Assembly: GCA_027045875.1 (NCBI GenBank)
Contig: JALUAG010000074.1
Coordinates: 62,001-126,000, forward strand
Source: Alphaproteobacteria bacterium
GTDB lineage: Bacteria; Pseudomonadota; Alphaproteobacteria; Geminicoccales; Geminicoccaceae
Direction: 5' to 3'
DNA length: 64,000 nucleotides
Each line of letters begins with the position of its first letter. Within the stretch, counting starts at the first letter, position 1. The translations under genes and the position numbers were made by a program. Shown here piece after piece: positions 5,269-48,044 of the stretch. The notes beneath the pieces are model-generated. The model did not search any database and was not told the origin of the DNA. It saw only the letters and a program-made list of their open reading frames with translations.

Positions 5269-6420
5269 TTAGGCCAGAAGCCTTAACAAATTCTGAGGCA
5301 ACTGGTTGGCCTGGGCGAGCATCGCCACGCTCGCCTGGGTCATCACCTGGGCGGAGGTGAACTTGGTCATCTCGGCCGCCATGTCGACGTCGAGCAGGGT
5401 CGAGCGGGCGGCGTCCAGGTTCTCGATCGAGGTGGCGAGATTGGCCGAGGCGAACTCGAAACGCGACATCTTGGCGCCGAGATTGGCCCGCGCCTCGTTG
5501 ACCGTCTCGATCGCGGTGTCGATGGCCGTGCTCGCCGAAGTGGCGTTGCTCGCCGTGTCCACCGACGCGCTCGACAGACCCAGCGCCGCCAGATCCACGT
5601 CGGTGATGTCGACCGAAATCGTGTCGCTCGAGGAGACGCCGACCTGGAAGGTGAGCGTGCCGCTGCCGGAGACCGTGAACTCGCTGTTGGTGCCGGCGGT
5701 GATGGCGGTGGTGAAGTCGAAATTGTCGGTGGTCAGCTCGATGCCCAGGTTCTCGAAGCGGAAGTTGGCGTCGATCACCTTGTCGCCGGAGGCGTGGGTG
5801 AACTGCACCGTGTCGGATACGGTGCCGTTGGTGAGGGTGAACTGACCGAGGCTGCTGGACCCGGTGTAGGCGTAGGAGAGCTGGAAGGTGCCGGTGCTCG
5901 GCGTGTCACCGATCAGCCGCACGCTCAGCCCCCGGTCGCCCGAGCTGCCGCCGAACACCGTGGAGGCGGCGGTGGAAACGGTGATCTGCTTGCCCGCCGA
6001 ACCGTCCAGCAGCGTGTTGCCGTTGAACTTGGTCTGGCTGGTGATGGAGGTGATCTGGCTCTTGAGCTCGCTGAACTCCTCGTTGAGGAAGCCGCGCTCG
6101 GTGTCGGTGAGCGAGCCCGACTGGGCCTGCACCGCCAGCGCCTTCATGCGCTGCAGGATGTCCGAGATCTTGGCCATGCCGCCGTCCGCCACCTGCAGCA
6201 GGCTGGAGGCCTGGGAGGCGTTGACCGCCGCCTGCCGCAGCGAGTTGACGTCGGCCATCACCTTGGTGCCGACGGCGAGGGAGGCGGCGTCGTCGGAGGC
6301 CTTGACGATGCGCGAGCCGCTCGACAGCTTGGCGAGCGAGCTCGAGGCCGCGGACTGGTTCTGGGCGAGGTAGCGCAGCGCCGTGTTGGCCGCGGTGTTG
6401 GTGGTGCCGGTAAGAGGCAT
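5269..6420 (-). CDS. fliC: Flagellin
   Basis: Structural subunit of the flagellar filament, secreted through the flagellar export apparatus. The product is 383 aa. The conserved D0/D1 N-terminus includes ALRYLAQNQ, SSLAKLSSGSRI and ASDDAASLAVG. The C-terminal D1/D0 half includes SRFEFASANL, DVDMAAEMTKF and the terminal PQNLLRLL. The central D2/D3 part is variable and beta-rich. I prefer the ATG at 6420 because AAGGAG lies 7 bases upstream; the ATG at 6426 is only one base from that site. A sigma-54-type promoter about 100 bases upstream fits late flagellar control. Confidence 0.97.
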   Translation of the reverse strand: MPLTGTTNTAANTALRYLAQNQSAASSSLAKLSSGSRIVKASDDAASLAVGTKVMADVNSLRQAAVNASQASSLLQVADGGMAKISDILQRMKALAVQAQSGSLTDTERGFLNEEFSELKSQITSITSQTKFNGNTLLDGSAGKQITVSTAASTVFGGSSGDRGLSVRLIGDTPSTGTFQLSYAYTGSSSLGQFTLTNGTVSDTVQFTHASGDKVIDANFRFENLGIELTTDNFDFTTAITAGTNSEFTVSGSGTLTFQVGVSSSDTISVDITDVDLAALGLSSASVDTASNATSASTAIDTAIETVNEARANLGAKMSRFEFASANLATSIENLDAARSTLLDVDMAAEMTKFTSAQVMTQASVAMLAQANQLPQNLLRLLA

Positions 6421-6516
6421 GTGCATTCTCCTTCTACGTGAAGCGAGCGCCCCGTGGGGCCTTTTCCTCCGGGCTATGTGCCCGCGCCGGAGACAGTTCC
6501 GGCGGAAATTCGTGAT

Positions 6517-6531
6517 CCAAGAACCGTGCCA
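6517..6531 (-). promoter_or_regulatory. Candidate sigma-54 promoter of flagellin
   Basis: On the minus strand TGGCAC (6526-6531), a 5-base spacer and TTGG (6517-6520) match the RpoN -24/-12 consensus TGGCAC-N5-TTGC in all but the last base. The invariant -24 GG is kept; the -12 GC is GG. It points at flagellin with a leader of roughly 85 bases. Sigma-54 control of flagellin is known from other alphaproteobacteria. Confidence 0.5.
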
Positions 6532-6601
6532 ACCGGAGATAGCCGCGGATCCGCCCGCCTTCCGGCGGCGGCGCGGGACGGGGGGCGGCAGGATTTGCCG
6601 C

Positions 6602-7585
6602 ATGCGGCAGATTCTGCCGGCAGTTTCCGCCGCACTGGGCATTTTTTTCCTCCTGCCGGCCGGCGCCGAGGGACGGGCCGGGACGGGGCTCGCCTTTCCC
6701 CTCGCCTGCCAGCCGGGCCGCGACTGCTGGCCGGTGCGTTACGTGGACCGGGATCCCGGGCCGGGATGGCGCGACTATCGGGGCGGCGAGCGCAGCGAGG
6801 ACGGTCACGACGGCACCGACCTCGCCATCGGCGACCGCAGGCGGATGAGCGAGGGGGTGGCGGTCCTCGCCGCCGCCGATGGTGAGGTGCTGCGCAGCCG
6901 CGACGGGGAACCCGATTTCGCGCTGGTCGAGGAGGGACCGGAGACGGTGCGGGAGCGGCCATGCGGCAACGGCGTCCTGATCCGGCACGAGGGCGGTCTC
7001 GAGACCCAGTACTGCCACCTGCGTCGCGGCAGCATCATGGTCCGCCCGGGCGATCGCCTGCGCGCCGGCGCAATCCTGGGCTATGTCGGCATGTCCGGCG
7101 AGACCAGCTTTCCCCACCTCCACTTCACGGTGCGTCGCGACGGCCGGCCGATCGACCCCTTCGCCGCGCCCGCCGGCGAGGAGCAGGGCTGGGCGCCGGA
7201 TGCGGCCTCCGCACTCGCCTACCCGCCGGCGGTGCTGACCGGTCTCGGGCTCGCCGTGGGCCCGGTGGAGATGCGCGACCTCCAGGCGGGCTTTCACGAT
7301 TTCGCGAGCATCCCGGTCACCGCGCCGGCGCTCGTCATCTGGGTGCGAGGCTTCTGGTTCGAGGACGGCGATCGCCTGGAGCTTTCGATCCGAGGTCCCG
7401 ACGGCGCCCTGCTGGTCGCCGACACGCGGCGCCTGACGCGGTCGCGCACCTTCGCCTTCTACTTCGCGGGCAGGAAACGGCCGGACGGCGGCTGGGCCCC
7501 GGGCGACTACCGCTTGCGCGCCCTGCTGCGCCGCGGCCAGGCGCGCGTAGCCCTCGAGCGCACCGTCGTCCTCCACCCTCAGTAG
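6602..7585 (+). CDS. Secreted M23-family metallopeptidase (LytM-like)
   Basis: Probable periplasmic murein hydrolase or hydrolase activator, 327 aa. A signal peptide covers about residues 1-25. The M23 domain carries the zinc set: H69 and D73 (HDGTD), H139 (QYCHL), and H172/H174 (PHLHF). All catalytic residues are present, so activity is plausible. A C-terminal beta-rich domain of about 110 residues follows. The ATG at 6602 directly precedes the signal peptide. The gene is divergent from flagellin, and its stop overlaps the convergent csaA-like gene by 7 bases. Confidence 0.85.
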
Positions 7586-40533: not shown

Positions 40534-41367
40534 TCAGCCACCGGCCGCGGCGAGGCAGCGCGCCGCGGCGCGCTGCGGCCGGAGCCCGCCGGTCAGCGTC
40601 ACGCCGGGCACCAGCAGGCGCCCTCGTCGGACCAGGAGCTGCCAGCCCTGGCGTACCGGCACCACCTCCTCGAGCCAGTCCTTGCCGCGGCTGCGGGCAC
40701 CGCACAGCGGCACGCCGGCCCTGTTCGCGAGCGCCGCCAGCACCTCGGCGCTGCTCGCCGTCCGCGGGCCGATCAGCACCCCTTCGAGTTGCAGTTTCAT
40801 CGCCGCACCCCCGGGCAGCCGGAAGGGGGTCGTGCCGGTCTCCGTTTCGAGGAGCGGCGGTTCGAGCCGGGCTCCGAGGAGCGCCCGGGCGAGCCGGAGC
40901 ATGCGCCCGAAATCGCCGCCCCGGCTGCCGCGCAGGTCGAGCAGGATCCGCGACCCCGCCGGCACGCGCTCTCCGAGTTCCCCGAGCAGCCGCCGACCGA
41001 AACGGTCCACGCGGACGCGCAGGCGGCCGTCCCCGAGCGGTTCGACGCCGGTGATCGAAGGGCGGGTGCGCACCCAGCGGATGGTGTCGGTGTCGGGTGT
41101 CTCCACCTTCACCAGGCGATAGCGCGCGGGATCGGCGGCAGCCAGGAGACGTGCCGCGCACAGGCGATCCTCCCCGCAGCGCGCCAGGACCTCCGGCTGC
41201 CGGTCGGGACCCACGCCGAGGCGGTCGAGAAAGGGCTCGGCCCGCCCCGACGCCACCGGCGCCGCGAGCAGGCCGAGCAGGAGAGCGAGCCGCGCGACCG
41301 GCGCGCGATCAGTGGCAGTAATTGAGCGCCCCGACCATGAAGGTCCCCCAGGGCTCCTCCCCGACAT
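40534..41367 (-). CDS. S41-like (C-terminal processing peptidase) catalytic-domain protein
   Basis: An exported protein of up to 277 aa with a signal sequence (VARLALLLGLLAAPVASG). It carries the S41 core without a PDZ domain: RILLDLRGSRGGDFG, then GVLIGPRTASSAEVLAAL with the nucleophile Ser and a Lys 24 residues later in SRGKDW, the spacing of the S41 Ser-Lys dyad. The start is uncertain: the ATG at 41367 overlaps the YVTN gene by 59 bases, and no ATG lies closer to the signal peptide. It is coupled to the B12-riboswitch gene upstream. Confidence 0.72.
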   Translation of the reverse strand: MSGRSPGGPSWSGRSITATDRAPVARLALLLGLLAAPVASGRAEPFLDRLGVGPDRQPEVLARCGEDRLCAARLLAAADPARYRLVKVETPDTDTIRWVRTRPSITGVEPLGDGRLRVRVDRFGRRLLGELGERVPAGSRILLDLRGSRGGDFGRMLRLARALLGARLEPPLLETETGTTPFRLPGGAAMKLQLEGVLIGPRTASSAEVLAALANRAGVPLCGARSRGKDWLEEVVPVRQGWQLLVRRGRLLVPGVTLTGGLRPQRAAARCLAAAGG

Positions 41368-42460
41368 CGTCGATGAGCTCCACGAGCTCGCGCTTGCGGG
41401 TATCGATCACCGCCACCTGGTTCGTGCTGCTGATGGCGACGTAGAGCCGGGTCCCGTCGGGCGAGGTGACGCCCGTCTCCGGCGTGCCCGGCAGGGCGAT
41501 CTCGCCGGCGTTCTCCATCGTCTCGAGATCGATCACGACGAGCTTCTCCTCGGCGTTGCTGATCACGAAGGCGGTGGTCTCGAACCAGCCGGTGTTGACC
41601 CCGGTCATGCCGTTCGCGCCCGGCAGACGCGCCACCTCCTCGAGACTGGCGGTGGAGATGATGGACACTGTCTCGTCGCCGTTGTTGGGCACGATCATGA
41701 AACGACCGTCGGCCGTCGTGTAGGCCCGCCACGGCAGCTCGCCGAGCTCCAGGGTCTTCTTCTTGCGGCCGTTGCGCAGATCGAGCACCGCGAGGCGGTT
41801 GCCCTCGCCGAAGGCGGCGAAGCCGAGCCGCCCGTCCGGGGTCGCGGTGACGTTGATGACCCCCTGATACTCCCGATCACCGCCGCCGGCATAGGCCACC
41901 GCCTGGCCCTCGCCGACCGGGATCTCCTCGATCACCTCGGCGCTGGCGACGTCGATCACGCTCACGAAGTCGGCCCCCAGATTGCCGACGTAGAGCCGCG
42001 TGCCGTCGGGGCTGAAGGTCAGGTTGTGGGGTTCGTAGAGACCGTCCACCCGGGCGATCTCGCGCATCTCGCCGAGATCCACCAGCGACACCGTGCCGGC
42101 ACCGATGTTGCCCACCGCGAGCAGGGCGCCGTTCGGCGCGAGCTGCATGTGCTCCGGCTCGATGTCGAGGGCGATGTTCACGGCCGGAGCGTCGCTGCCG
42201 AGGTCGATCACCGAAATGGTGTTGTCGGCCGTGTTGCTGGAGGCGAGCTTGCCCAGCGTGTCGGACACCGCCACCTGATGCGGCACGTTGCCCACCGGCA
42301 GGCGCGCCACCACGCGATTGTCCCGGGTGTCGATCACCGCGACGTCGGCGGAATTGCGGTTGGGCACGAACAGATAGCGCTCGATATCGCTGAAATCGCG
42401 GGCCTGCGCGACACCGGCCATGGCCGCCACGGCCATCCCCGACAGGATCCATTTCCGCAT
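41309..42460 (-). CDS. Periplasmic YVTN/YncE-type beta-propeller protein
   Basis: A 383-aa protein with a signal peptide (about 1-21) and a seven-bladed propeller of YVTN-type repeats. Blade motifs include YLFVPNRNSADVAVID, LTFSPDGTRLYVGNLGADFVSVID and TSPDGTRLYVAISSTNQVAVID (each shown under 24 residues by its core). It ends in NYCH. The ATG at 42460 has AAGGAG 10 bases upstream. A cobalamin riboswitch fills the leader, so expression should fall when B12 is plentiful. A role in cobalamin or cobalt handling is inferred only from that. Confidence 0.88.
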   Translation of the reverse strand: MRKWILSGMAVAAMAGVAQARDFSDIERYLFVPNRNSADVAVIDTRDNRVVARLPVGNVPHQVAVSDTLGKLASSNTADNTISVIDLGSDAPAVNIALDIEPEHMQLAPNGALLAVGNIGAGTVSLVDLGEMREIARVDGLYEPHNLTFSPDGTRLYVGNLGADFVSVIDVASAEVIEEIPVGEGQAVAYAGGGDREYQGVINVTATPDGRLGFAAFGEGNRLAVLDLRNGRKKKTLELGELPWRAYTTADGRFMIVPNNGDETVSIISTASLEEVARLPGANGMTGVNTGWFETTAFVISNAEEKLVVIDLETMENAGEIALPGTPETGVTSPDGTRLYVAISSTNQVAVIDTRKRELVELIDDVGEEPWGTFMVGALNYCH

Positions 42461-42511
42461 GAATGGATACTCCTTACGTTCGGGACACCCCGTCCCTCGG
42501 TTGTGGTTCGC

Positions 42512-42682
42512 GATGGCAGGTCTCCTGGCTCGCGGGTCGTCGCCTCGATCGGCCTTCCCGGAGCGTCGCTCCAGTGGCATCGCGGATCTCGGCTCGCCGC
42601 CTACAGTTGCGGGGGCAGCTCCGGCTTTGCCCGGCGGGCGCACCGGATTCCCTTTTCATCCCCGAAGGGAACCATCACCCGC
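42512..42682 (-). promoter_or_regulatory. Cobalamin (AdoCbl) riboswitch
   Basis: Read on the minus strand the region carries the conserved riboswitch elements in order: AAAAGGGAA and CCGGTGCG near 42638-42655, GCTGCCCCCGCAACTGT (42603-42619), GATGCCACTG, GGGAAGGC (42551-42558) and GCCAGGAGACCTGCC (42515-42529). It lies in the 317-base gap 42461-42777, whose remainder holds no gene. A gggac/gtccc hairpin near 42482-42496, between the aptamer and the SD, may be part of the expression platform. It controls the YVTN gene, not the plus-strand kinase gene. Confidence 0.95.
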
Positions 42683-42777
42683 AACCTCCGCCAAGCGCGA
42701 GACAGCGTCAAGCGCGAGTTGCTTGCGGCCCGCCCGGCCATCGCCTAAGCCGACATCGATCACCGGGAATGCGACCC

Positions 42778-43452
42778 ATGGACCAGCCGGCCACCCTGGT
42801 CGTCGACATCGGCGGCAACAAGATCAAGCTCGCCCTCGCCGGCCGGGAGGAGCGCCGCAAGGCCCCGTCGGCGCCCGATCTCACGCCGGAGCGGGCGATG
42901 GAGGCGATCCGCGAGCTGGCCGCCGACTGGCATTACGACCGGGTCACCCTGGGCTGCCCGGGGCCGGTGCGGGACGGACGGCTCGTGGGGGAACCCGTCA
43001 ATCTCGGCCCCGGCTGGGTGGGCTTCGACTTCGCCGCCGCCTTCGAGCGGCCCGTGAAGCTCGTCAACGACGCGCTGCTGCAGGCGATCGGTTCCTGGGA
43101 AGGCGGCAAGATGCTGTTCCTGGGCCTCGGCACCGGTCTCGGCAGCGCCATGGTGGCGCCGGGTGTCGCGCTGGCGCTCGAGCTCGCCCATCTTCCCTAC
43201 AAGCGCAAATGGACCTATGAGGACTGCCTCGGCCGGCGCGGGCTGCAGCGCATGGGCCGCAAGCGGTGGGAACGGATGGTGTGGGACGTGGTGGCCCGCT
43301 TCCGCGACGCCTTCCTGGTGGACGAGGTCGTGCTCGGCGGGGGCAACGCCAAGCGGCTGCGCCAGCTTCCGGAGGGCTGCCGGCTCGGCAGCAACGCCCT
43401 CGCCGTCCGGGGCGGGCTCAGGGTGTGGACCGAGCCCTTCCGGTTCCTCTAG
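42778..43452 (+). CDS. ROK-like sugar kinase (polyphosphate glucokinase type)
   Basis: A 224-aa ASKHA-fold kinase. The phosphate-1 motif is VVDIGGNKIKLAL, LGCPGPVRDGRLVGEP and FLGLGTGLGSAM follow, and VDEVVLGGGNAKRL is the adenosine motif. It is shorter than typical ROK kinases and lacks their CxCGxxGC zinc site, as in polyphosphate glucokinase-like proteins. An upstream in-frame ATG at 42769 is possible; GGGA suits the 42778 start better. It is divergent from the riboswitch-YVTN unit. The sugar and phosphoryl donor are not known. Confidence 0.75.
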   Translation: MDQPATLVVDIGGNKIKLALAGREERRKAPSAPDLTPERAMEAIRELAADWHYDRVTLGCPGPVRDGRLVGEPVNLGPGWVGFDFAAAFERPVKLVNDALLQAIGSWEGGKMLFLGLGTGLGSAMVAPGVALALELAHLPYKRKWTYEDCLGRRGLQRMGRKRWERMVWDVVARFRDAFLVDEVVLGGGNAKRLRQLPEGCRLGSNALAVRGGLRVWTEPFRFL

Positions 43453-44798: not shown

Positions 44799-44875
44799 GC
44801 GCCCGTAGCTCAGTCGGATAGAGCGTCGGCCTCCGGAGCCGAAGGTCAGAGGTTCGAGTCCTCTCGGGCGCGCCA
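44799..44875 (+). tRNA. tRNA-Arg (anticodon CCG)
   Basis: A 77-base cloverleaf with encoded CCA. The acceptor stem is GCGCCCG/CGGGCGC, the D arm GCTC-GAGC, the anticodon stem TCGGC/GCCGA with loop CTCCGGA (anticodon CCG, reads CGG), and the T arm AGAGG-TTCGAGT-CCTCT. The discriminator is G. It stands alone between an ABC ATPase and a TRAP operon. No integrase or partial tRNA copy is seen next to it. Confidence 0.98.
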
Positions 44876-44980
44876 CCCCCCGGACATCCGTACCTTCCGC
44901 GGCGGGTTTGCATCCGCACGCAGGTTCCTCTATGCCGGATGCGCCCGAAGGCAAGGACACCGCGATCCGGGAGGGAAACC

Positions 44981-46033
44981 ATGGAAACATCGAGAATTCT
45001 GGGACTTGCCACGGCGGCGATGGCGCTGACCGCGGTCGCGCTGGCGCCCGCCGACGCCGACGCGCAGCGGGTGCGCTGGAAGATGGCGAGCGCGTTTCCC
45101 AGCAGTCTCGTGCAGCTGGGCACGCTCGGCAAGAACATCGAGAAAAAGATCGAAGCCGTTTCCGGGGGCGAGTTCCGGATCCGCTTCTACGAGCCCAAGG
45201 CGCTGGTGCCGCCGCTCGAGACCTGGGACGCGGTCTCGCAGGGTTCCATCGACGCCGCCTGGACGGCCGCCGGCTACTGGGCGGGCAAGATCAAGGCCTC
45301 GCCCCTGTTCACGGCGGTACCCTTCGGTCCCGCGGCGCCGGAGTATCTCGCCTGGATGTACTACGGCGGCGGGCTCGAGCTGTGGCGGGAGATCGCCCAT
45401 CGCTCCAACATCCATCCCATCCCCTGCGGCATCATCGCGCCCGAGGCTTCCGGCTGGTTCCGCGAGGAGATCAAGTCGGTCGAGGATCTCAAGGGTCTGA
45501 AGATGCGCTTCTTCGGCCTCGGCGCCCGGGTGATGGAGAAGATCGGGGTGTCGACCCAGCTGATCGCCGGTGGCGACATCTATCCCGCCCTCGAGCTCGG
45601 CTCCATCGATGCCACCGAATTCTCGATGCCGGCCATCGATCTCAATCTCGGCTTCTACCAGGTGGCCAAGCATTACTACTTCCCCGGCTGGCACCAGCAG
45701 TCCTCGATCCTCGAGATCGAGGTCAATCTGGACAAGTGGAAGGCCCTCACCGACCAGCAGCGGGCCCAGCTCGAGATGGTCTGCGGCGACAACATGCGCG
45801 AGGGCCTGGCCGAGGGCGAGGCCATCCAGTGGAAGGCGATCCAGACCCTGCAGGAAAAGGGGGTGCAGATCCACCGCTGGCCGGACGAGGTGCTGGACGC
45901 CCTCGAGAAGGCCTGGGGGGAGGTGGTCGAGGAACTCGTTCAGGAGGACGAGGACTTCGCCCGTGTCTGGCAGTCGCTTTCGACCTTCCGCGCCAACTAC
46001 GCGACCTGGAAGGAACTCGCCTATCTGAAGTGA
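44981..46033 (+). CDS. dctP: TRAP transporter solute-binding protein (DctP family)
   Basis: Periplasmic receptor of a DctPQM transporter, 350 aa with a signal peptide (about 1-28). KMASAFPSS, GGEFRIRFYEPKALVPP, GLKMRFFGLGARVMEKIG and HYYFPGWHQQSS are characteristic of the subgroup that includes alpha-keto-acid binding TakP. The conserved Arg in LKMRFFG should bind the ligand carboxylate. The ATG at 44981 has GGGAGGG 6-7 bases upstream. Ligand: a carboxylate, probably a keto or hydroxy acid, by family. Confidence 0.92.
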   Translation: METSRILGLATAAMALTAVALAPADADAQRVRWKMASAFPSSLVQLGTLGKNIEKKIEAVSGGEFRIRFYEPKALVPPLETWDAVSQGSIDAAWTAAGYWAGKIKASPLFTAVPFGPAAPEYLAWMYYGGGLELWREIAHRSNIHPIPCGIIAPEASGWFREEIKSVEDLKGLKMRFFGLGARVMEKIGVSTQLIAGGDIYPALELGSIDATEFSMPAIDLNLGFYQVAKHYYFPGWHQQSSILEIEVNLDKWKALTDQQRAQLEMVCGDNMREGLAEGEAIQWKAIQTLQEKGVQIHRWPDEVLDALEKAWGEVVEELVQEDEDFARVWQSLSTFRANYATWKELAYLK

Positions 46034-46127
46034 CGCCACGGCGACTCCGCCGTCCGCCGTGCAGGGGACCGGCGCCGGGCCGGCGCCGGGCCCCGTCCGC
46101 ATCCCTCCGTCCCGACAGGCGTCGCCC

Positions 46128-46661
46128 ATGGACAAGGCCCTCCGCTTCGCGCGCGCTCTCGAGCGGCTGGTTTCGACGATCGGCCGCATCTTCGCCTGGC
46201 TGTCGCTGCCACTGGCCGCGGTGATCGTCTTCGACGTCGTCACCCGGCGCTTCTTCGTGCTCGGCTCGACCCGGCTGCAGGAACTCGAATGGCATCTCCA
46301 TGCCGCCCTCTTCCTGATGCTCCTCGGCTACGCCTATCTCCGCGACGCCCATGTGCGCATCGACGTGCTGCGCGAGCGGATGTCGCCGCGCACCCGGGCC
46401 TGGGTCGAGGTCGTCGGCTGCCTCCTGTTCCTGATCCCCTACAGCCTCCTCCTGCTCTACTACTCGGCCAACTTCTGGGAGCGTTCCTTCCTGCTCGGCG
46501 AGGCCTCGGCGGCGACCACCGGCCTGCCCCACCGCTGGATCGTCAAGGCGGCGATGCCGCTCGGCTTCGCCCTGCTGTTCCTGGCCGGATTGAGCGTGCT
46601 GCTGAACCGCCTGCGAGATCTGCTGGGCGGTGACGAGCCGCCGACCGAAGCGCGGCGCTAG
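46128..46661 (+). CDS. dctQ: TRAP transporter small permease (DctQ)
   Basis: Small membrane subunit of the TRAP transporter, 177 aa with four hydrophobic segments. VIVFDVVTRRFFVLGSTRLQELEWHLHAALF (shown in part: VTRRFF and LQELEWHLH) is the family signature and LRDAHVRIDVL follows. The ATG at 46128 gives a correct N-terminus; the 94 bases before it are GC-rich with no gene. It connects the binding protein and large permease genes in the usual order. Confidence 0.92.
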   Translation: MDKALRFARALERLVSTIGRIFAWLSLPLAAVIVFDVVTRRFFVLGSTRLQELEWHLHAALFLMLLGYAYLRDAHVRIDVLRERMSPRTRAWVEVVGCLLFLIPYSLLLLYYSANFWERSFLLGEASAATTGLPHRWIVKAAMPLGFALLFLAGLSVLLNRLRDLLGGDEPPTEARR

Positions 46662-46673
46662 GAGACGCGGGCG

Positions 46674-48044
46674 ATGTATTTCGAGGACGCGCTGCCTCTC
46701 CTCATGTTCGCCACCCTCGCGGTGCTGCTGTTCTGCGGCTACCCGGTGGCCTTCGTGCTGGGGGGCGTGGGTTTCGGCTTCGGGCTGATCGGCTGGTACT
46801 TCGACGTCTTCAACCTCGTCGAGTTCTTCAATCTGGCGCCGCGCATCTGGGGCGGCACGGCCGAGAACCTGGTGCTGGTCGCGGTGCCCATGTTCGTCTT
46901 CATGGGCACCATGCTGGAGCGCAGCGGGGTGGCCAAGGACCTGCTCGAATGCCTCGAGGTGCTCTTGCGCCGGGTGGCCGGCGGCCTCGCCCTGTCGGTC
47001 ACCCTGATGGGCACCATCATGGCCGCCACCACGGGCATCATCGGCGCCTCGGTGGTGATGATGAGCATCCTCGCCCTGCCGGTGATGGTGCGGAGCGGCT
47101 ACAGCCACGCGCTGGCCACCGGCACCATCTGCGCCTCGGGCACGCTCGGCATTCTCATCCCGCCCTCCATCATGCTGGTGCTGATGGCGGATCTGCTTCA
47201 GGTCTCGGTCGGCACCCTGTTCATGGCCGCGGTGGTGCCGGGACTGCTCCTCTCCGGCCTCTACTACCTCTACATCAACGTCCTGTGCCGCATCCGCCCG
47301 GAGATGGCGCCGCCGCTGCCCGAGGACGCCGGCCCGGAGGGAACCCTCGAACTGCTGGTCATGGTGCTGCGCAGCTTCCTGCCGCCGGTGATCCTCATCT
47401 TCCTCGTGCTGGGCTCGATCTTCTTCGGCTGGGCGACCCCCACCGAGGCCTCGGGGGTCGGTGCCGCGGGCGCCGTCCTGCTGGCGCTCGCCAAGCGCAA
47501 CCTCACCCTCGCGGTGCTGCGCGAGGTGGTGGAGCGTACCGCCCTCACCAACGCCATGATCTTCGGCATCTTCGTCGGCGCCACCGCCTTCTCCTACGTC
47601 TTCCGCTCCCTCGGCGGCGACTTCGTGGTCGAGGATCTGATCCTCGGCTCCGGCCTCCACGACTGGGGCATCCTGATCGTCATCATGGCGGTCGTGTTCG
47701 TGCTCGGCTTTTTCTTCGACTGGCTGGAGATCACCCTCATCGTGCTGCCCATCTTCGCCCCCATCCTGCGGCAGCTCGGGGCGATGGCCGATCACGTGGG
47801 CGGTGCGGAGCTGATCGTGCCCTGGTTCGCCATCCTGGTGGCGGTCAACCTGCAGACCAGCTTTCTGACCCCGCCCTTCGGCTTCGCCCTCTTCTATCTC
47901 AAGGGGGTGGCGCCCAGAGAGATCAAAATCCAGGAGATCTACCTCGGGATCGTGCCCTTCGTGCTGCTGCAGCTGGTGGGCCTCGGCATCGTCATGGCCT
48001 TTCCCCAGGTCGCGCTGTGGCTGCCCGGCGTGCTGCTGGACTGA
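46674..48044 (+). CDS. dctM: TRAP transporter large permease (DctM)
   Basis: Large transport subunit, 456 aa with about twelve hydrophobic segments; it drives import with a sodium or proton gradient. ENLVLVAVPMFVFMGTMLERSG, SGTLGILIPPSIMLVL and FFGWATPTEASGVGAAGA are diagnostic (shown as VAVPMFVFMG, GTLGILIPPS and ATPTEASGVGA). It lies 12 bases after dctQ and completes the operon. The C-terminus contains the FLTPPFGFALFYL motif. Confidence 0.96.
   Translation: MYFEDALPLLMFATLAVLLFCGYPVAFVLGGVGFGFGLIGWYFDVFNLVEFFNLAPRIWGGTAENLVLVAVPMFVFMGTMLERSGVAKDLLECLEVLLRRVAGGLALSVTLMGTIMAATTGIIGASVVMMSILALPVMVRSGYSHALATGTICASGTLGILIPPSIMLVLMADLLQVSVGTLFMAAVVPGLLLSGLYYLYINVLCRIRPEMAPPLPEDAGPEGTLELLVMVLRSFLPPVILIFLVLGSIFFGWATPTEASGVGAAGAVLLALAKRNLTLAVLREVVERTALTNAMIFGIFVGATAFSYVFRSLGGDFVVEDLILGSGLHDWGILIVIMAVVFVLGFFFDWLEITLIVLPIFAPILRQLGAMADHVGGAELIVPWFAILVAVNLQTSFLTPPFGFALFYLKGVAPREIKIQEIYLGIVPFVLLQLVGLGIVMAFPQVALWLPGVLLD

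Follow-up and report, generated by a model that had tools for sequence, protein, structure and literature searches.

The stretch of DNA analyzed here (the window) comprises 64,000 nucleotides from an Alphaproteobacteria bacterium of the family Geminicoccaceae (assembly GCA_027045875.1, contig JALUAG010000074.1, positions 62,001 to 126,000). On its reverse strand, it carries a cobalamin riboswitch followed by a gene for a YVTN-type beta-propeller and by an overlapping gene for a small S41 peptidase (Table 1). An earlier note, made from the sequence alone, had described a complete cobalamin riboswitch leading a periplasmic YVTN protein and an overlapping S41-like gene, and this description was borne out: the riboswitch model is covered end to end, with a gathering threshold of 31.5 bits (cmscan of the window), 37 bases separate the end of the match from the YVTN start codon, a signal peptide can be read by eye, and the two genes overlap by 59 bases. 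The span given in that note, 40534-42682, was correct overall and needed extension only at the riboswitch, which reaches 42691. We propose with moderate confidence that this riboswitch-controlled module is a periplasmic system that supplies cobalt for making B12 and that B12 turns it off.

Table 1. Features of the riboswitch-propeller-protease locus (positions in the window; aa, amino acids)
Feature	Position	Strand	Basis
Cobalamin riboswitch aptamer RF00174, complete	42498..42691	(-)	Rfam cmscan, 126.7 bits, E 1.8e-31, model 1-189
Short hairpin GGGAC-GGGGU-GUCCC, 3' of the aptamer and 5' of the ribosome-binding site	42482..42496	(-)	Fold of the leader
Shine-Dalgarno sequence AAGGAG, 9 nt 5' of the YVTN start codon	42470..42475	(-)	Sequence
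YVTN/YncE-type beta-propeller, 383 aa, ATG start at 42460; proposed periplasmic cobalt-capture protein	41309..42460	(-)	Pfam, TIGR02276, AlphaFold, fold matches
Invariant His61 codon, start of inner strand, repeat 1	42278..42280	(-)	28/28 rows with a residue at this position (of 30); strand E60-66
Invariant His104 codon, start of inner strand, repeat 2	42149..42151	(-)	28/28 rows with a residue at this position (of 30); strand E102-107
Invariant His145 codon, start of inner strand, repeat 3	42026..42028	(-)	28/28 rows with a residue at this position (of 30); strand E144-149
C-terminal Cys382-His383 codons	41312..41317	(-)	Cys in 27/27 and His in 26/27 rows with a residue at the position
Small S41 peptidase of at most 277 aa (from first ATG)	40534..41367	(-)	PF03572; PDB matches to C-terminal processing peptidases (CTP), best E 6.4e-17; AlphaFold
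Predicted nucleophile Ser codon (S191 of the 263-aa stretch, S205 of the full open reading frame)	40753..40755	(-)	Aligned with H. pylori CtpA
Predicted catalytic Lys codon (K215 of the 263-aa stretch)	40681..40683	(-)	Aligned with H. pylori CtpA

Control of the module by B12 is read from the riboswitch family and is therefore a predicted property. The short hairpin downstream of the aptamer possibly belongs to the expression platform, although we offer this only as a suggestion from the fold; the leader RNA as a whole folded no better than its shuffles (z -0.12), did not show the aptamer, and was uninformative.

The linkage of the three elements is conserved. Of the 31 genomes compared in the order, which all belong to one family, eight carry the YVTN-S41 pair, including the genome of the window, and in each of the seven others a riboswitch lies 5' of the propeller gene. 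The flanking genes, compared by eye from the starts of open reading frames, differ between genera, and therefore the riboswitch, propeller, and protease parts travel as a unit. A scan with two sequence patterns of a genome contig collection of 84,980 species returned 29 loci from alphaproteobacterial groups and from genomes named Proteobacteria (L079), Thermopetrobacter (L064), and Bacterium HR39 (L055); seven of these genomes are the same as in the family set, and one locus is split between L076 and L077. RF00174 was detected upstream in 23 of the 29, that is, in 24 of 27 assessable loci when the window is included, the upstream DNA of L069, L074, and L077 being too short to judge. An S41 partner was present in 25 of the 29 (26/27 assessable, again with the window), since L058, L068, and L076 stop at a contig edge 3' of the propeller, and in L079 the propeller gene leads directly to CobU, leaving no space for an S41 gene. 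The conservation of the riboswitch-YVTN-S41 link, which the earlier note had proposed as a check, was confirmed by these counts. Because only two RF00174 matches exist in the 3.5 Mb of the window's own genome, and because the adjacency recurs in other genera with differing flanks, the association of riboswitch and YVTN gene is not due to chance. In the assemblies of both L078 and L079, the propeller is spread over two frames, by assembly error or decay.

The neighborhoods of the related loci connect the module to cobalamin synthesis. In 11 of the 29 loci, cob genes extend the operon: CobU, CobW, and CobN occur together in nine (L057, L060, L063, L065, L066, L067, L071, L073, and L079), CobU and CobW in L080, and CobU at the contig end in L078. 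Pfam confirmed CobU and CobW in L057 and CobN in L060, while the 129-aa CobN fragment of L057 had no Pfam match of its own. The order in L059 is riboswitch, CbiM, propeller, S41, and DUF2000, and L069, where the contig start cuts off the rest, has the same order from CbiM onward; cob or CbiM neighbors accordingly accompany 13 of the 29 loci. The DUF2000 gene follows S41 in both CbiM operons (L059, 7940-8398; L069, 2623-3126). At the window copy, the riboswitch is present and no cob gene adjoins. A B12-independent isozyme was considered as the product of the module and rejected, as Pfam and NCBIfam scans showed no likeness to a metabolic enzyme for either protein and the related loci sit with cob genes.

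A more distant setting is provided by three plasmids of Candidatus Manganitrophus (Nitrospirota), on which RF00174, a porin, and a propeller 38-39% identical to that of the window stand at the end of a cluster for cobalamin synthesis. Pfam identifies the porin of L130 and L131 as OprB, and that of L132 is annotated as a carbohydrate porin. L130 has the riboswitch and the propeller without S41, and a search of plasmids with the S41 protein gave no match. In L130 (isolate GAC2), OprB is split into two overlapping open reading frames (5615-6854), and it is a single frame in GAC4 (L131, 3616-4854); GAC1 (L132) has its propeller annotated as two open reading frames. Distant propeller relatives, 32-34% identical across some 62-65% of the query, were also found in DUF305-annotated genes on Paracoccus plasmids (H8, H10, and H11).

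The second riboswitch of the window's own genome (L043, 6430-8950) is followed by a short open reading frame without a Pfam match, CobW, and a TauE/SafE permease. The same three genes follow the other riboswitch in a genus-mate (G017, L133), and the first two do so in another (G016, L134), where the contig ends after CobW. The TauE/SafE permease is possibly, judging from this gene order, an inner-membrane partner of the module in the genus of the window. Elsewhere, a HupE/UreJ gene, divergent in sequence, lies convergent to the pair in L050 (4330-4953) and L061. Within the window, a gene for a ROK-family protein (42760-43452), whose nearest NCBIfam model is polyphosphate-glucose phosphotransferase, below the cut-off, diverges from the riboswitch, and a TRAP transporter operon (44939-48044; DctP, DctQ, and DctM by Pfam) lies just beyond a tRNA gene (44799-44872).

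Within the family, the distribution of known importers differs between genomes with and without the module. CobN was found in 8/8 family module genomes, in 20/21 other propeller genomes (28/29 propeller genomes in total), and in 17/23 module-less family genomes. Among the CobN-bearing genomes of the family, matches to CbiM, CbtA, or HupE, the three importers counted, occur in 16 of the 17 module-less genomes and in only one of the eight with the module (Fisher p 1.3e-4), and such an importer follows a same-strand riboswitch at a distance of no more than 1.5 kb in 10/17 versus 0/8. For these counts, sub-cut-off CbtA matches (G005 and G041) were disregarded, and G018 and G025, whose propeller relatives (33-39% identity) come without S41, counted as lacking the module. 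For the 21 genomes outside the family, presence of the propeller was the sole criterion, S41 being not assessable in G032 and G040 and absent in G049; the modules of G040, G041, G042, G046, and G051 showed no riboswitch, with too little upstream DNA in G041 and G046. NicO was left out because this family mixes importers and RcnA-like efflux proteins; when NicO matches above the cut-off are counted, the contrast becomes 17/17 versus 1/8, and 13 of the 20 CobN-bearing propeller genomes outside the family have a candidate importer. In one genome, G001, the NicO match spans the full length in a single piece.

Nickel and cobalt transporters are listed in one paper as CbiMNQO, NiCoT, UreH, HupE/UreJ, and CbtAB-CbtX (PMC2667541), and another source describes cobalt transporter types as interchangeable between species (PMC545781). 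In the module-less relatives, CbiMNQO, CbtAB, and HupE fill the riboswitch-controlled slot (10/17). These systems are inner-membrane permeases, whereas the module acts in the periplasm and must cooperate with such a permease. In the relatives, a riboswitch-controlled system linked to genes for inserting or transporting cobalt was observed, while its binding or movement of Co(II) is putative.

Both proteins of the pair are predicted, by signal peptides evident in their sequences, to be exported to the periplasm. The signal peptide of the propeller, MRKWILSGMAVAAMAGVAQA, is free of cysteine, and hence the protein has no lipobox. The propeller matches the Pfam models YNCE (PF21783; 65.7 bits, cut-off 27.1) and Cytochrom_D1 (53.4 bits, above the cut-off) and the TIGR02276 repeats (131.6 bits, cut-off 27.85); its AlphaFold model has a predicted local distance difference test (pLDDT) score of 83.8. 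We infer eight repeats. Besides the three histidines of Table 1, Arg35, Gln62, Glu103, and Arg245 are found in 28/28 rows with a residue at the position, the paralogues L011 and L012 being excluded from the conservation counts. His61, His145, and the C-terminus lie outside the scan patterns, and all of them, as well as His104, are kept in L130, a plasmid relative found without the patterns. The L130 propeller also keeps Arg35, Glu103, Arg245, Glu328, Trp371, and a C-terminal Asn-Tyr-Cys-His, while Gln62, Asn146, Gln199, and others are changed. The three-histidine set, possibly with the Cys-His end, may form a metal site in the central channel.

This pattern resembles that of AztD, likewise a periplasmic propeller, whose zinc ligands in the pore are His124, His167, and His218 and whose C-terminal histidine joins a second zinc site (PMC6689063). 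In the model, His61, His104, and His145 stand at equivalent inner-strand starts, resembling the AztD pore; AztD, however, belongs to a zinc context (AztABCD) and the window propeller to a B12 context. Homology to AztD was rejected, and the likeness is treated as an analogy. The propeller scores 12.5 bits against the 400-bit cut-off of the AztD model NF038015. The best profile alignment, based on 25/32 rows (without L011, L012, L069, and L076-L079), reached 54% probability over 57 columns, being short and having alternative registers, and none of the three histidines was paired with an AztD histidine in the profile alignments to the six best AztD-model proteins. Matches to the AztD model occur in ten genomes, three of them over the curated cut-off, and a search across the class gave three weak matches in 142 genomes, none usable. 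No solute-binding-type protein was found among the seven locus proteins scanned, a check for AztABC limited to the locus.

The zinc-carrying AztD also raises the alternative that the module is a periplasmic chaperone for copper, zinc, or nickel in the B12 regulon, guarding cobalt insertion from mis-metalation, which is conceivable since zinc can mis-metalate CobW (PMC7689651). A gene for PCu(A)C follows the module in L081 (8040-8558), a riboswitch-less locus, and another in L051 (6660-7139) follows an S41-less propeller paralogue, with a DUF2946 gene between; these neighbors suggest envelope metal handling and count in favor of the cobalt-supply reading as well. We nevertheless regard this alternative as quite improbable, given the riboswitch in 24/27 loci and the cob or CbiM neighbors in 13/29, and given that CbiM, CbtA, and HupE are missing in 7/8 family module genomes, which points to supply rather than protection.

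In structural alignments, the propeller is closest to cytochrome cd1 (Z 38.4, the highest), followed by NirF (33.6) and NirN (33.0). The unrelated WD40 protein ODA16 also reaches 33.6, designed eight-bladed propellers reach 30, and the top Foldseek match by E-value is the YVTN surface-layer protein 1l0q. Because a WD40 protein scores as high as NirF and the top Foldseek match is 1l0q, the resemblance to heme d1 propellers shows the fold more than the function. The propeller shares with these proteins the fold and an above-cut-off Cytochrom_D1 match, and it differs from them in its B12 context and in sequence, with 14-18% identity.

The heme d1 held by the cytochrome cd1 propeller is a modified tetrapyrrole, and because the top structural match binds such a ligand, corrinoid capture is the main rival of the cobalt-supply reading. 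According to this rival, which we consider unlikely, the propeller would act in the periplasm the way BtuG acts on the Bacteroides surface, binding cobalamin or a precursor, and the protease would free the corrinoid from proteins. BtuG, too, is an exported beta-propeller encoded in operons linked to cobalamin riboswitches, and it binds B12 with femtomolar affinity (PMC6143338); CobU, moreover, is also a salvage enzyme. BtuG is, however, a seven-bladed surface lipoprotein beside BtuB, which a search of gut genomes placed in Bacteroidetes alone (PMC6143338), whereas the window propeller has eight inferred repeats and no lipobox cysteine and its relatives adjoin cobalt-insertion genes. Membership in the BtuG group was rejected on the missing lipobox and on the lack of a BtuB-model match in the genome of the window, and BtuG (PDB 3DSM) is not among the 50 structural-match rows listed for the propeller.

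The earlier note had also recommended looking for btuB/TonB genes nearby. The BtuB model TIGR01779 (E 0.001) matched in none of the eight family module genomes, including that of the window, and it gave three full-length and four partial matches among the 21 other propeller genomes; as none of the 52 genomes passes its curated cut-off, this model may miss BtuB proteins. Against corrinoid capture stand also CobN, present in nearly all propeller genomes, and the CobN, CobW, CbiM, and porin neighbors, which suit an ion better. Overall, the evidence favors cobalt over B12 uptake because there is no lipobox, no BtuB-model match in the eight family genomes, and few known importers there.

The protease is the least explained part of the module. 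The protein matches Pfam Peptidase_S41 (PF03572; 29.2 bits, cut-off 24), and its AlphaFold model (pLDDT 89.3) aligns with CtpA and CtpB at a structural Z of about 17. It shares with the CTP family (CtpA, CtpB, D1 protease, S41) the S41 core and the aligned serine and lysine, whose H. pylori CtpA partners are S300 and K325 by a spacing count from the structure titles. Each of the two predicted residues is kept in 24/24 rows of an alignment of the window with 23 of the 25 loci having an S41 match (L056 was left out for a contig end and L073 for a split match). The protein differs from the CTP family in its length of 263-277 aa, in two invariant N-terminal cysteines, and in the third triad position (Q329 of the H. 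pylori titles), which is Gln in only 3/24 rows. No PDZ domain was present among its Pfam matches up to E 1, and its score against TIGR00225 (C-terminal processing peptidase), 14.6 bits, is far below the cut-off of 218.6.

The overlapping genes and the conserved serine and lysine would also suit a tricorn-like two-subunit envelope protease, in which the propeller gates or presents substrates to S41 and B12 control serves to degrade a B12- or metal-related envelope protein. The missing PDZ match makes a separate adaptor plausible, and the S41 model weakly resembles tricorn in structure (Z 10.2, 206 residues, root-mean-square deviation 6.2). However, the protease is missing in L130, where riboswitch and propeller both occur, L079 leaves no space for it, and across the relatives the propeller is better conserved (64-86% identity to the window) than the protease (35-71%); we therefore find this arrangement very improbable.

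Returning to the cobalt-supply reading, the earlier note had raised the idea that the pair may be a novel periplasmic component for acquiring cobalamin or cobalt, and that idea gains support from the conserved link and from the cobU-cobW-cobN, CbiM, and porin/B12-cluster contexts. Cobalt is scarce and needed mainly for B12. When cobalamin is low, the riboswitch, acting as its family does, would permit expression of YVTN and S41. The propeller would then bind Co(II) in its central channel via the three histidines of successive blades, possibly with the C-terminal Cys-His, and would pass it to an inner-membrane importer, which may be CbiM where this is encoded and possibly the riboswitch-linked TauE/SafE permease in the genus of the window. 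The porin of the Nitrospirota plasmids would represent the step before the propeller and CbiM (L059) the step after it. S41 may have an accessory role, probably in the processing or turnover of the propeller or of some other protein of the envelope. CobW and CobNST would finally put the cobalt into the corrin ring, an insertion that is an established pathway.

Several observations weigh against this reading. Three loci (L068, L070, and L081) have no RF00174, and a search for weak riboswitches, at E up to 1, found none in any of the six riboswitch-less loci. The importer contrast, counted by genus, becomes 11/12 versus 1/3 (p 0.08), so relatedness weakens it, and outside the family 9/20 CobN-bearing propeller genomes match CbiM, CbtA, or HupE (some weakly), with 11/20 matching none; in addition, CbtC-G, CbtX, and CbtJKL were outside the searches. 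Because the pattern scan used Glu103-His104 (PEHM) and Trp244-Arg245, His104 and Arg245 are in part invariant by design. The PCu(A)C neighbors could point to copper, CobU acts late and in salvage, and the ligand of the propeller may be a corrin, the top solved fold being cytochrome cd1 holding heme d1.

The text of a 2021 review of cobalt in B12 notes the importer CbtJKL and predicted cobalt-specific TonB receptors, none of them confirmed, and the word propeller does not occur in that text (PMC7689651). The riboswitch-propeller-S41 arrangement appeared in no title or abstract opening among the literature matches listed, most subscription papers being outside the scope. A more specific form of the cobalt-supply reading, which we put forward as unlikely in its entirety, would be an eight-bladed periplasmic cobalt metallochaperone of a new class, with a three-histidine channel and a C-terminal Cys-His lid, made only at low B12, whose release of the metal is triggered by a dedicated C-terminal peptidase. 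If this were true, proteolysis, and not an ABC-type binding protein, would drive the handover of cobalt. The module is a candidate B12-controlled envelope component with named residues, and a named isolate, Thermopetrobacter sp. TC1 (L064), bears it. It could explain how cobalt is supplied in CobN-bearing genomes without matches to CbiM, CbtA, or HupE.

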